From positions 1 to 21,980 of the IMG/VR virus record IMGVR_UViG_3300042987_000276: DNA of 21,980 nucleotides; one strand, 5' to 3'. The DNA is from a virus. The notes beneath the pieces were generated by a model. The model did not search any database. It saw only the letters and a list, made by a program, of their open reading frames with translations, and was not told where the DNA came from. The position numbers and the translations under genes were made by a program. Positions 1 through 3,727 of this stretch are shown here, in pieces (position 1 is the first letter of the stretch; each line of letters begins with the position of its first letter).

Positions 1-461
1 GTTGCCGACGTCGCAGTCGCGGCATTGCCGGTGATGTTGATTCCCCAAGTGCCGGACGCGCCGCTGCCTCCAAGTGATGGGCTATATGACGTGTAGTTGC
101 CGGCATGAAGGACTTGGTTCCCACCATGCTGAAGCGATCCAGCGGTTACATTGATCGTGCTTCCGCTAAACTGCATATTTGCGGCGCTTGCAGCAACATT
201 TAGCGTGCCATACGTGCCGGTGTCTCTGTTGTAGACAAAGATATATCCCTGACCGGACGACATTCCGATCTCTGCGGCTTGCCCCGTAGCGGCTCCGCCG
301 CTGTACCATCCGGTAAAACGACCCTGACCGCCTGAAGATATGTCTCCAGAAAAAGACCTCTGGGATGTGGTCGCGGAGTTACCGCTGATCGATATGCCCC
401 ACGTACCGGACGCACCTGTGCCGCTTAGAGTCGGAGCGTAAGAGCCGATGTTCCCGGTGTG
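1..461 (-). repeat. Two copies of a 118-residue tail fibre module
   Basis: The motif H-T/A-G-N, then SY-P-L, then GASGTWGI and a GN-A/S-AT end occurs twice in frame. Copy A begins at 461 and copy B at 107, exactly 354 nt (118 codons) apart. The DNA is similar but not identical (TCCGGTACGTGGGGC against TCCGGCACTTGGGGA). Copy B runs off the edge. More copies may follow outside. Such units form repeated shaft segments in tail fibres. Confidence 0.7.
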
Positions 462-1448
462 TATGTATGTCTGCCCAGCATCGGTCTGCACGCTGCCCCA
501 AAGCCGGATAATTCGACCTCCGTTTGCAACGGTTTGTGTACCGACAATATTTAGACCGGAGCCAAACAAAGCCGCGCCAATCTTTCCGTCGTTTCCGTCA
601 CTCTGGTTCGCGTGACCAAAGCGGATATTCTGCCCAGACGTTACTTCAACGCTTCCAGTCAGCGTCCCGCCGGCTAACGGCAAATAGCTCGTCGCGTTGC
701 TCAACGGCGTATAACCAAGCGCCGTAGTCACGTCACCGGAAGCAAGTGATGCACCGGTCGTGACGCGACCCTTCGCGTCCACAGTGACCTTGGTGTACGT
801 GCCGGCAGCTACTCCGCTGTTGGCGAGCGTGAGCGCAGTCGAGGAGCCGGTTGATCCGGACCCTGTGACATCGCCCGTGAACGTCAGTGAGCCAGAGATT
901 GACGACGTCGAAACACCGGTAACGTGACCGGTTGCATCCACGGTAATGACAGGCACTGACGTCGAGGACCCGTACGAGCCCGCCGTAACGCCGCTCACCG
1001 CATGGCTGATCGCGCCGCTCGTTGAGTTGTACGAAATCGGCGCAGTACCAGACAGCGCGCCACGCGCACGGGCATTGGTGAAGTACAGATTCGTGCTGCC
1101 TTCCGTGACAGCATCCGTACTTCCCGGGGAAGCAGAGATCTCAACGTACGCCGAGCCAGACCAGCGGTAGGTCTTGTTGGTATCGAGCGTGACGTAGATC
1201 TTGCCGGTCTCCCCCGTCGCCGGAAGCGCGGCTAGGTTAGCCCCTTCAACTACGTCGTCAACGTAGGACGGCAGCTGTGCAGACGGCACTTTCCCGCTTC
1301 CGTCGAGCGAGGCGTAGCCATTTGCCACCCCCTTGTTCGAGGCGGATTCTTTCTGACCCAGCTCGGTGTTGATGTTCGTGAAGTTATTGTCAACTTCAGC
1401 GTTGGTCAGCGGCGAACCTTTGCCTGATCGAGTGGTAATACTAGCCAT
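1..1448 (-). CDS. Tail fibre protein, C-terminus cut by window edge
   Basis: At least 482 codons, open to the left edge with no stop. It was recovered by reading the minus strand from the ATG at 1448, which has AGGTAA about 6 nt upstream. The start MASITTRSGKGSPLTNAEVD and GKIYVTLDTNKTYRWSGSAYVEIS are typical of phage fibre N-terminal parts. Further on are TNLYFTNARARGAL (about residue 118), ALGYTPLS (about 243), LPLAGGTLTG (about 256) and two copies of GASGTWGI followed by GN-ATT/ATA motifs, all known fibre repeat elements. The protein is Gly/Ser/Thr-rich, trimeric beta structure expected. It would form the receptor-binding fibre; the tip, with any chaperone or receptor domain, lies outside the window. 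Confidence 0.88.
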   Translation of the reverse strand, partial: MASITTRSGKGSPLTNAEVDNNFTNINTELGQKESASNKGVANGYASLDGSGKVPSAQLPSYVDDVVEGANLAALPATGETGKIYVTLDTNKTYRWSGSAYVEISASPGSTDAVTEGSTNLYFTNARARGALSGTAPISYNSTSGAISHAVSGVTAGSYGSSTSVPVITVDATGHVTGVSTSSISGSLTFTGDVTGSGSTGSSTALTLANSGVAAGTYTKVTVDAKGRVTTGASLASGDVTTALGYTPLSNATSYLPLAGGTLTGSVEVTSGQNIRFGHANQSDGNDGKIGAALFGSGLNIVGTQTVANGGRIIRLWGSVQTDAGQTYIHTGNIGSYAPTLSGTGASGTWGISISGNSATTSQRSFSGDISSGGQGRFTGWYSGGAATGQAAEIGMSSGQGYIFVYNRDTGTYGTLNVAASAANMQFSGSTINVTAGSLQHGGNQVLHAGNYTSYSPSLGGSGASGTWGINITGNAATATSA

Positions 1449-1503: not shown

Positions 1504-1965
1504 TTAGACTGCGGACAGGGTAATCGTCCAAGTCACCGTCATCGCGTCATCAGCAGCCTTGTTCACCACTGGGAACACGGTGCGGCAAAGCATGGTGCCA
1601 GCGGTCGAGGCATTGAAAATGCCAGCTTCCGTCACGGCGCCAGTCGCATCACCGGCCTCGAACGAAGACACGTAAACAACCTGGTTGTTGTTCGCGCCAG
1701 CGATCGTGGTCGAGTCAAGCGCCTCACGCGAGCCAAGAGTGCTCACGAGATCGCTCTGACCAGCAGCGGCTGCAGTGGTACCAGCGCCAAGCGCCATGTG
1801 CGACATGACGGCCTGCGACGTACCAACCATACGGCTGATGATGTAAGCAAGGCCGGTGTTCACCACAAGGTTGTTGACCTCGCGCTGATCCTTGACGTTG
1901 CCATCCTTGTCCCGAAGGACAATGTTCAGCCGACCCTTAACCTTCAAACTCTCAAGAGTGTTCAT
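1504..1965 (-). CDS. Conserved phage structural protein, 153 aa
   Basis: A 153-aa beta-rich protein. The opening LKVKGRLNIVLRDKDGNVKD followed by VVNTGLAYIISRMVGTSQA and the later phrases SHMALGAGTTAAAAGQSDL, TEAGIFNASTAGTMLCRTVF and VNKAADDAMTVTWTITLS form a pattern I know from many marine and soil phage proteins that lie next to tail fibre genes. Their function is not settled; a tail-associated or receptor-adhesion part is likely. The ordered strands suggest a single jelly-roll or Ig-like domain. GAGG lies 9 nt before the ATG at 1965, and the gene begins 14 nt after the repeat protein. A perfect hairpin follows its stop and separates it from the tail fibre. Confidence 0.72.
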   Translation of the reverse strand: MNTLESLKVKGRLNIVLRDKDGNVKDQREVNNLVVNTGLAYIISRMVGTSQAVMSHMALGAGTTAAAAGQSDLVSTLGSREALDSTTIAGANNNQVVYVSSFEAGDATGAVTEAGIFNASTAGTMLCRTVFPVVNKAADDAMTVTWTITLSAV

Positions 1966-1979
1966 CTAAGACCCTCACA

Positions 1980-3392
1980 TCAAGTGAATGAACGAGAACT
2001 ACCAACATAATCCTCTGCGAAATACGAGAAATCGCAGTAACCCTGCGACCGTAGAGTTCCCGAACTATCTACGGATACAGAGTCAGACTTTCCGGGATCG
2101 AAGCTCTTGAACGAGGCATCGGTAACCTGGAAGAAGTCGTCGAAATATTTTGAGTGCGCTTTAGCGATTTGTTCAGCAATGTCTATTGAGTTTTCGGGTG
2201 ATCTGGAGAACGATTTTAGGATGGCAATAACGTCTTCAATTAGTGCAGATTCTGATATGGACTTAGCAAGATCCCAGCTGTCAGAGTCGGAGGTAACCGA
2301 CTCGTCAGATGAGGTCTTGCTAAATCCAATAGCTGTAGCGTCCGAAGCATCAGCGCTATCGCTAGTCGGCTTATCGAAGGCATATGAGTGCGCGTCTGAA
2401 AAAGCGCCGTCGTCTGCGAGTAACTTTTCAAGATCAAATCTATCTTCGTCACTGAACACGCCGGCGTCGTCCAGCGCTTTTACCAGTTCGCGAATTGCGC
2501 TATCGGCGGCAGCAGCAGAATCAACGGACGACTTCAGAAACTCCTGAATCGCCTGGTCTGCTGCTTCAAGTGACTCCGCAGTAACCTTTTCGAACAAGCG
2601 AAGATCTGAATCGGACAGTGAAGCTGTGTCGGCGGCTGGCTTTTCAGTCGACAACGCCGCGAGGTCAGATGCGCCGGAGGCGTCATCAAAGACTCTCGTG
2701 TAATTGACCTGGCGATAGAACTCATCGCTAGCACCAGCAATGTTGCTGGTCTGCTTGAGGAAAACCATCTCCTGGTCGTCCTCAATACTTGCTTCTCCGT
2801 CTATGTCGTCGGTTGCAGTTACGCTGTCTGATACCGGCTTAGTAATAAGACGTGAGCTATCGTCAGACAACGTTGCTGCATCAAGTAGCGTCTTTTGTAT
2901 AGCCACCGAAGCATCGTCAAGGGCAGCGCATACGTCAGCAACCTGCTTAGCTACAGACAGATCTGCGTTTTCTAGCACTGCTGCAGCATCTGTAAGCGCC
3001 TTAGCAATGGTGCGCGCGATTGCATCCGCAACCTTCGGGTTCTCTTGCACGCCTTTCGCAAGCGCATACAGACGAACATCGGACAACGAAAGATTGTCCG
3101 TCAGCGTCTTTGCAAACGTCGCCGTCTGGTCGTCGGTAACAGAAGCTTGATCAGTTAGAGACTTGCCGACCGACGCTACGAACCGTTCAACAACGTTGAA
3201 CGCGTCCTGTAGTTGCTTCTGTATTGACCGGGAGGCTTGGTCCGAAACCGTAGCCGCATCAGAGCGATCAAGGACGAGGAGGAAGATTCCGATCTCGTAT
3301 ACGAGCTTTATGACACGGGCTTGCACTGCTGCGGCGAGAGTGCCCGCCGTAGCTGTTGCTTTGAGAATGCTCCATGCCGCAGTCAGCTTCAC
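1980..3392 (-). CDS. Tandem 18-residue repeat protein, probable virion fibre or spacer, 470 aa
   Basis: No named family is assigned. The 470-aa protein starts at GTG 3392, overlapping the previous stop as GTGA. Residues 1-44 contain a hydrophobic helix (VIKLVYEIGIFLLVLD). Residues 45-437 consist of 21 tandem units of about 18 residues with the pattern x-A/S-x-x-x-D, seven to eight variable residues, then K-x-x-x-D; most are exactly 18 long (QASVTDDQTATFAKTLTD is a clean copy). Three insertions break the period near units 9, 10 and 19. The last 33 residues form a different cap with YCDFSYFAEDYVGSSRSFT. I recall similar Asp/Ser repeats in uncultured phage proteins near fibre genes. Position between a BppU-like protein and the fibre genes suggests an exposed rod or stalk. 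It is acidic and has lower GC than the head genes. Confidence 0.75.
   Translation of the reverse strand: MKLTAAWSILKATATAGTLAAAVQARVIKLVYEIGIFLLVLDRSDAATVSDQASRSIQKQLQDAFNVVERFVASVGKSLTDQASVTDDQTATFAKTLTDNLSLSDVRLYALAKGVQENPKVADAIARTIAKALTDAAAVLENADLSVAKQVADVCAALDDASVAIQKTLLDAATLSDDSSRLITKPVSDSVTATDDIDGEASIEDDQEMVFLKQTSNIAGASDEFYRQVNYTRVFDDASGASDLAALSTEKPAADTASLSDSDLRLFEKVTAESLEAADQAIQEFLKSSVDSAAAADSAIRELVKALDDAGVFSDEDRFDLEKLLADDGAFSDAHSYAFDKPTSDSADASDATAIGFSKTSSDESVTSDSDSWDLAKSISESALIEDVIAILKSFSRSPENSIDIAEQIAKAHSKYFDDFFQVTDASFKSFDPGKSDSVSVDSSGTLRSQGYCDFSYFAEDYVGSSRSFT
2082..3260 (-). repeat. 21 tandem 54-nt coding units
   Basis: The stretch encodes the 18-residue repeats of the 470-aa protein (residues 45-437). 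Units are alike at protein level, mainly at the Ala/Ser, Asp and Lys positions, but differ widely in DNA sequence, so they are old or under diversifying selection rather than recent duplications. Exact period holds for units 2-8 and 11-18. Unit 1 has one extra residue, unit 9 ten, unit 10 two and unit 19 two. Confidence 0.75.
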
Positions 3393-3727
3393 GCTATGTC
3401 CTCTCGGACGCGGAATTTGAGCAGGTCATAGACCGTCTGACGGGCCCCTGTATTTGACCAATAGACTTCTACTTCGCCCTCGTAGTCACCAGCCGGGATA
3501 TTCAAATCACCGGCTTGCCATACGATCAGGGCTATACCTTGGGCCGCTTGCTGCTGGTTGATCAGCAACTGCCGTGAGAACAACGCGGCAGTGCCCCCAA
3601 CATCGCGAAAGTGCAGGGTGGCAGTCGCCCCGGCCAAGTCGATCGGGTCGCCTGTGCTTTCATCGGTGAGCGTCACGCTAACTTGAGGATAGGTGTCGCC
3701 TTGAACCAGTTTGATTCTCTCAGCCAT
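3389..3727 (-). CDS. BppU-like Ig-type domain protein, 112 aa
   Basis: A small beta-sandwich protein. It starts MAERIKLVQGDTYPQVSVTL and contains DLAGATATLHFRD and IPAGDYEGEVEVYWSNTG, a pattern seen in the N-terminal domain of phage upper baseplate proteins (BppU) and many stand-alone phage proteins. In those, the domain anchors receptor-binding parts to the tail. Here it stands alone at normal domain length, upstream of the repeat protein and tail fibre genes, so a tail-tip or fibre-adaptor role is likely. AGGGG lies 7 nt before the ATG. Its stop overlaps the GTG start of the repeat protein (GTGA), so both are probably made in fixed ratio. Confidence 0.75.
   Translation of the reverse strand: MAERIKLVQGDTYPQVSVTLTDESTGDPIDLAGATATLHFRDVGGTAALFSRQLLINQQQAAQGIALIVWQAGDLNIPAGDYEGEVEVYWSNTGARQTVYDLLKFRVREDIA

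Follow-up and report, generated by a model that had tools for sequence, protein, structure and literature searches.

What does a phage protein built largely of 18-residue repeats do among the tail genes, and why does it have the length it has? The question is raised by a 470-aa protein encoded in the window, which is the whole 21,980-base virus record analysed here. The major capsid protein of the window shares 53% identity with its counterpart in Pseudomonas phage KPP25. On the minus strand the capsid, internal and lysis genes come first, followed by genes for a 112-aa protein, the repeat protein, a Gp80-like protein and a tail fibre. The features of this region are as follows.

3389..3727, minus strand: 112-aa protein, 4-base overlap with the repeat gene, possible beta-sandwich connector (phrog_1084)
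1980..3392, minus strand: 470-aa protein with 18-residue repeats, GTG start, proposed rope or tether (autocorrelation, unit profile)
3273..3392, minus strand: helix-like N-terminal segment (residues 1-40), proposed to face the virion (AF2 helix at residues 2-45, low-to-moderate confidence; counterpart internal in relative L001)
2787..3272, minus strand: first repeat block (block 1, residues 41-202), nine 18-aa units (unit profile)
2769..2810, minus strand: conserved insert DDIDGEASIEDDQE, residues 195-208, overlapping the end of block 1 and breaking the register (TDDxDG..A...DDQE invariant in 12 relatives)
2043..2756, minus strand: second repeat block (block 2, residues 213-450), 13 units that become degenerate at the end (unit profile)
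1983..2069, minus strand: C-terminal cap, residues 442-470, DSSGTLRSQGYCDFSYFAEDYVGSSRSFT followed by the stop (conservation among relatives)
1504..1965, minus strand: Gp80-like 153-aa protein, proposed bead (phrog_5417, E 3e-28; Pfam Gp80 PF23140, E 5e-4, below the cut-off)
3..1448, minus strand: tail fibre gene with the opening SPLTNAEVDNNFTNIN, truncated by the window edge (opening motif common to the loci of relatives)

The 18-residue repeat is real. BLOSUM autocorrelation of residues 41-440 gave z=12.3 at lag 18, 8.9 at lag 36 and 8.1 at lag 54, and periodicity was still detectable at lag 108 (z=4.2); the top z over all lags in 500 shuffles was 4.1. With a unit profile derived from relatives, 22 units are recognised between residues 41 and 450. 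They lie in two blocks, residues 41-202 and residues 213-450, and insertions of 10, 2 and 2 residues interrupt the region. The original prediction had described an almost exact period over 393 residues and 21 tandem units. The period and the tandem arrangement stand, but the register is broken and the units number 22 in two blocks; two Asp positions six residues apart mask the break, which that prediction overlooked. Neighbouring units are identical at only 3-8 of 18 residues, and Tandem Repeats Finder detected no tandem repeat in the DNA of the gene, so the repeats are old and have been maintained by selection.

The units follow the pattern K-x-L-S/T-D-S/T-A/V-S/T-A/V-S/T-D-..-L/F-x-F/V, with L, F, V or I at position 3, hydrophobic residues at positions 7, 9, 15 and 17, and S/T at even positions. 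This refutes the earlier statement that all positions other than the conserved Ala/Ser, Asp and Lys-x-x-x-Asp ones are free. Across 2,198 units of the family, S/T accounts for 18-54% of residues at each even position and for at most 14% at odd positions, an enrichment matched by 0 of 20,000 permutations, and large hydrophobics are commonest at odd, uncharged positions. Such alternation is beta-strand-like and makes an extended chain of beta type more likely than a rod of alpha helices, as an indication rather than a proof of the fold.

The family to which the protein belongs is real, constrained and widespread. Podo-, sipho- and T4-like phages contribute at least 160 distinct members; a search with the cap motif yielded at least 120 contigs, and further searches raised the total to 170 distinct proteins. 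Members share the unit and the C-terminal cap and differ in the number of units, so the 18-residue period is kept by homologues with different unit counts. Complete relatives in the first set are 206-1170 aa long, two very short reading frames being excluded. The family is without a curated name and is covered by no Pfam or NCBIfam model. The 470-aa protein scores below every Pfam cut-off and has no NCBIfam match, PDB sequence searches with it and with two family profiles gave no useful match, and in PHROGs the family matches one group labelled 'unknown' and another labelled 'virion structural protein'. Among isolate phages, tblastn gave one weak match, and this proved to be a genuine repeat protein, encoded by phage BUCT-ZZ01.

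Differences in length between close relatives come in whole units, in support of the idea that spacer length scales with unit count. Total length differences of close pairs were used for this comparison, since alignment gaps in multiples of 18 are partly forced by the repeats. Between L064 and L075, a pair with 86% identity, the difference is 54 aa, or three units. A difference of 72 aa, or four units, separates L010 from L026 (75% identical), L027 from L106 (69%) and L118 from L218 (61%), and L025 is about 72 aa apart from the L236 group at about 53% identity. These pairs are not all independent, but the four-unit step is seen in no fewer than four separate groups. The same 72-aa step is also seen between L104 and L121.

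The two ends of the protein differ in how well the earlier description of them holds. The separate C-terminal cap is strongly conserved among relatives, with the consensus GxLxxQxYCDxxYFAEDYVGxSRTF-stop. The letters YFAEDYVG were fixed by the search pattern, so the evidence consists of the flanking residues (in the first set G 81%, Q 76%, Y 81%, C 63%, D 73% and final F 89%) and of the placement of the motif 5-6 residues before the stop in nearly all relatives, and about 6 in the 470-aa protein. Additional cap-like sequences such as YFLEDYV and YFAEDYM occur within or just upstream of the repeat proteins of L047, L062, L114, L011 and L013. The hydrophobic front segment had been taken for an anchor. 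Its counterpart in L001 is internal, at about residue 345-390 of 772, showing that it need not serve as a membrane anchor at the N terminus and leaving that part of the description unsupported. The two repeat blocks are separated by a conserved DxDG...DDQE insert. At window positions 2754-2813 (residues 194-213) it appears as a single module, TDDxDGxAS..DDQEMxFxK, amid the repeats, and it is also found in the nearest relatives. The module resembles a cation-binding loop.

The repeat gene has an almost constant neighbour, which the original prediction missed. A Gp80-like gene lies immediately downstream in 159 of the 162 distinct members with room for it, and likewise in the window; in L128, one of the three exceptions, the gene is present and was overlooked by the start rule. 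Next after the Gp80-like gene, 118 of 133 loci have a fibre gene with the opening LTxxEVDxNF, compared with 0 of 80 upstream stretches, and the loci that lack it downstream are mostly T4-like. The location among tail genes is borne out. The gene upstream of the repeat gene comes from at least four different families (45, 30, 15 and 8 loci), relatives of the 112-aa protein being found there in 30 loci, which shows that the association of repeats with the Gp80-like gene reflects more than one conserved genome. The reciprocal search took Gp80-like genes as its starting point. Where these loci had an upstream gene, an 18-aa repeat was present in it in about half of the cases, often with another cap. 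The isolates phiA008 and EBPR siphovirus 1 also have repeats and a Gp80-like gene with different caps. The Gp80-like protein is thus linked more tightly to the repeats than to the cap.

The link of this neighbour to Gp80 is weak. The protein of the window scores 20.9 bits against PF23140, for which the cut-off is 27, and six of twelve relatives match weakly (best E 4e-5). With hhalign, the match to core Gp80 is weak as well (E 1.4e-4, probability 52%, 30 columns). Among Burkholderiales loci with core Gp80, four of the seven examined have a long protein with repeats of about 20 aa close downstream, which supports a general pairing of Gp80 beads with repeat ropes.

The position of the repeats in other members indicates which end may face the virion. 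In T4-like members they form the C-terminal tail of the protein adjoining gp6, which matches baseplate wedge subunits, and in the marine T4-like L008, L018, L036, L065 and L110 both repeats and cap extend the wedge protein C-terminally. Rhizobium phage RHph_I1_18, in contrast, has the wedge domain without repeats. In Achromobacter siphophages, repeats and cap stand at the end of a protein whose gene directly follows that of the tape measure, and siphophage members match phrog_384 ('virion structural protein') over their full length. The phrog_384 protein of Achromobacter siphophage Axy14 has a similar cap and the same next gene, but it is fused to a tail domain and has only about 2-4 units. 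In T4-like phages and siphophages, then, it is probably the N-terminal side that faces the virion, as judged from these fusions.

Structure prediction of monomers gave no confident fold. For the 470-aa protein (59 aligned sequences) the AF2 model has a pLDDT of 54 and a pTM of 0.22, and for the relative L236 (57 aligned sequences) the values are 44 and 0.13, with mostly coil; both models are too poor to exclude a repeating fold. The monomer check called for by the original prediction thus returned partial helices, at residues 261-320 of the 470-aa protein (pLDDT about 74-89), and no confident repeating structure. The hydrophobic moments of the repeats at 70, 100 and 110 degrees are similar. 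The failure of AF2 would fit a chain that folds on a partner, a trimer invisible to a monomer run, or poor alignments of repeats.

The near-obligatory Gp80-like neighbour makes a rope that acts with a partner a likelier mechanism than a rod standing by itself. It has about an even chance of being true that the 470-aa protein is the rope, or tether, of a virion appendage with the Gp80-like protein as its beads; virion location, binding, polarity and a part in adhesion are what we infer. The N-terminal part of the rope would dock onto the tail. The 18-residue units would make up a beta-alternating, extended chain that by itself has hardly any stable fold or none, and the C-terminal cap would be the distal docking end. 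Copies of the Gp80-like protein would be the beads, bound to the repeats, the cap or both, and the resulting bead-and-string fibre would hold the adhesin fibre encoded by the following gene. Gain or loss of whole units would change the length, and perhaps the number of beads, so that the appendage could vary in length without altering either end. A role as a tail-appendage tether is likely, and binding of the Gp80-like bead to the rope would be plausible. The appendage may belong to the tail or to the neck, with beads strung along the rope or capping it, as in fibre I of podophage GP4. Of the anchored spacer with a tip that had been proposed, the spacer, the cap, the tail-gene context and the unit-wise length are retained, and the hydrophobic helix as anchor is not.

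Besides the phrog_384 and wedge proteins, three known systems resemble this arrangement in part. Fibre I of the Ralstonia podophage GP4 (PDB 8JOU) is described as a chain-like fibre that combines a small Gp80-like protein with a long extended partner; according to Zheng et al. 2023 it reportedly consists of gp80 dimers joined by an elongated rope protein. The 470-aa protein is likened to that rope by description and not by sequence, however, the bead of the window is only weakly homologous to gp80, and the core Gp80 relatives of Burkholderiales pair with repeats of about 20 aa rather than with 18-aa units and a YFAEDYVG cap. The GP4 fibril protein, 8JOU_g, has been described as a fibril linking an adhesin to the tail collar (PMC13243795). 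In Alishewanella phage LSH1, mass spectrometry found a virion module (gp34-gp36) in which gp34, with an unpredictable and perhaps repetitive tail, lies beside gp35, matched to 8JOU_g and related to GP4 gp80 (PMC13243795); gp34 differs in having a lyase-like domain at its start, and the likeness is again one of description, not of repeat sequence. The neck fibre of Anabaena phage A-1(L), gp82-gp81-gp80, is a flexible chain of about 16 beads and 100 nm, but its beads connect head to tail without a rope. Homology of these beads to the Gp80-like protein was considered and rejected, as none of the three matches the Gp80-like profile.

The period, the gene order, the wedge and tape-measure context, the length changes by whole units and the low AF2 confidence in two models argue for the rope, enough to put its being right about level with its being wrong. 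The predicted helices at residues 261-320 count against it, as do the A-1(L) bead chain that lacks a rope and the weak Gp80 homology of the bead in the window.

The strongest alternative, although rather unlikely, is a beta rod that folds by itself, either a beta-solenoid in which each coil takes 18 residues or a trimeric, intertwined beta fibre, with the Gp80-like protein serving only as an adaptor that binds the cap. The strict odd/even alternation would suit it, as would a pseudo-hexad of inward positions (1/7/13, 3/9/15 and 5/11/17) that fits 18 residues per coil; the cap is the most conserved part, and a trimer is beyond what monomer AF2 can judge. On the other hand, neither AF2 model has a confident fold, stacked Asp columns would require ions, and repeats and Gp80-like gene stay together in loci that have another cap. 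The alpha-helical rod or solenoid first proposed, or a coiled coil, with 18 residues making five turns, is weakened and now appears very unlikely. AF2 does place helices in parts of the protein with pLDDT up to 89, the K-x3-D spacing is compatible, and the repeats of the window rank high within the family in helix propensity (the helix cost is lower in just 15 of 168 members), yet S/T at all even positions with hydrophobics mainly at odd ones in 2,198 units, and the mostly coil prediction for L236, stand against it. Least likely is a disordered low-complexity linker with no specific partner and a period that is a mere duplication relic, for although AF2 confidence is low, the composition is Ser/Asp-rich and some relatives match serine-rich models, the period persists despite the low identity between units, and its conservation together with that of the neighbour, cap and insert points to constraint, not drift.

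The rope reading can be taken one step further, to a doubtful but specific possibility. The units may act as a molecular ruler in which a fixed group of them binds one Gp80-like bead, in which case length and bead number would evolve in quanta, such as the recurrent step of four units, and the same cassette of rope, cap and bead may have been grafted onto unrelated podo-, sipho- and myovirus parts. A large environmental phage protein family without a curated name gains a testable role. If the reading is true, it would account for the failure of structure predictors on the repeat proteins, and a single cassette would be reused on three kinds of phage tail. It would also be a rare case of phage appendage length encoded as repeat number and readable from metagenomes.

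Repeats of about 20 residues were seen in several other proteins. In L001 (529-2847) they occupy the first half and 18-residue units the second. Alishewanella phage Slicko01, which the LSH1 paper names, was considered as a carrier of the 18-residue unit and rejected, as its repeat is different; its 1843-aa protein (L295:5570-11101) has a repeat of about 20 residues and lies beside a small gene that resembles the 112-aa protein by eye. The proteins at L341:9707-11230, L342:6822-8525, L343:9879-11858 and L346:10408-11964, all close to core Gp80 (PF23140) genes of Burkholderiales, have tandem repeats of about 20 residues with a short proline-containing tail at the end, and at least some of them start with a sequence that looks lectin-like by eye.
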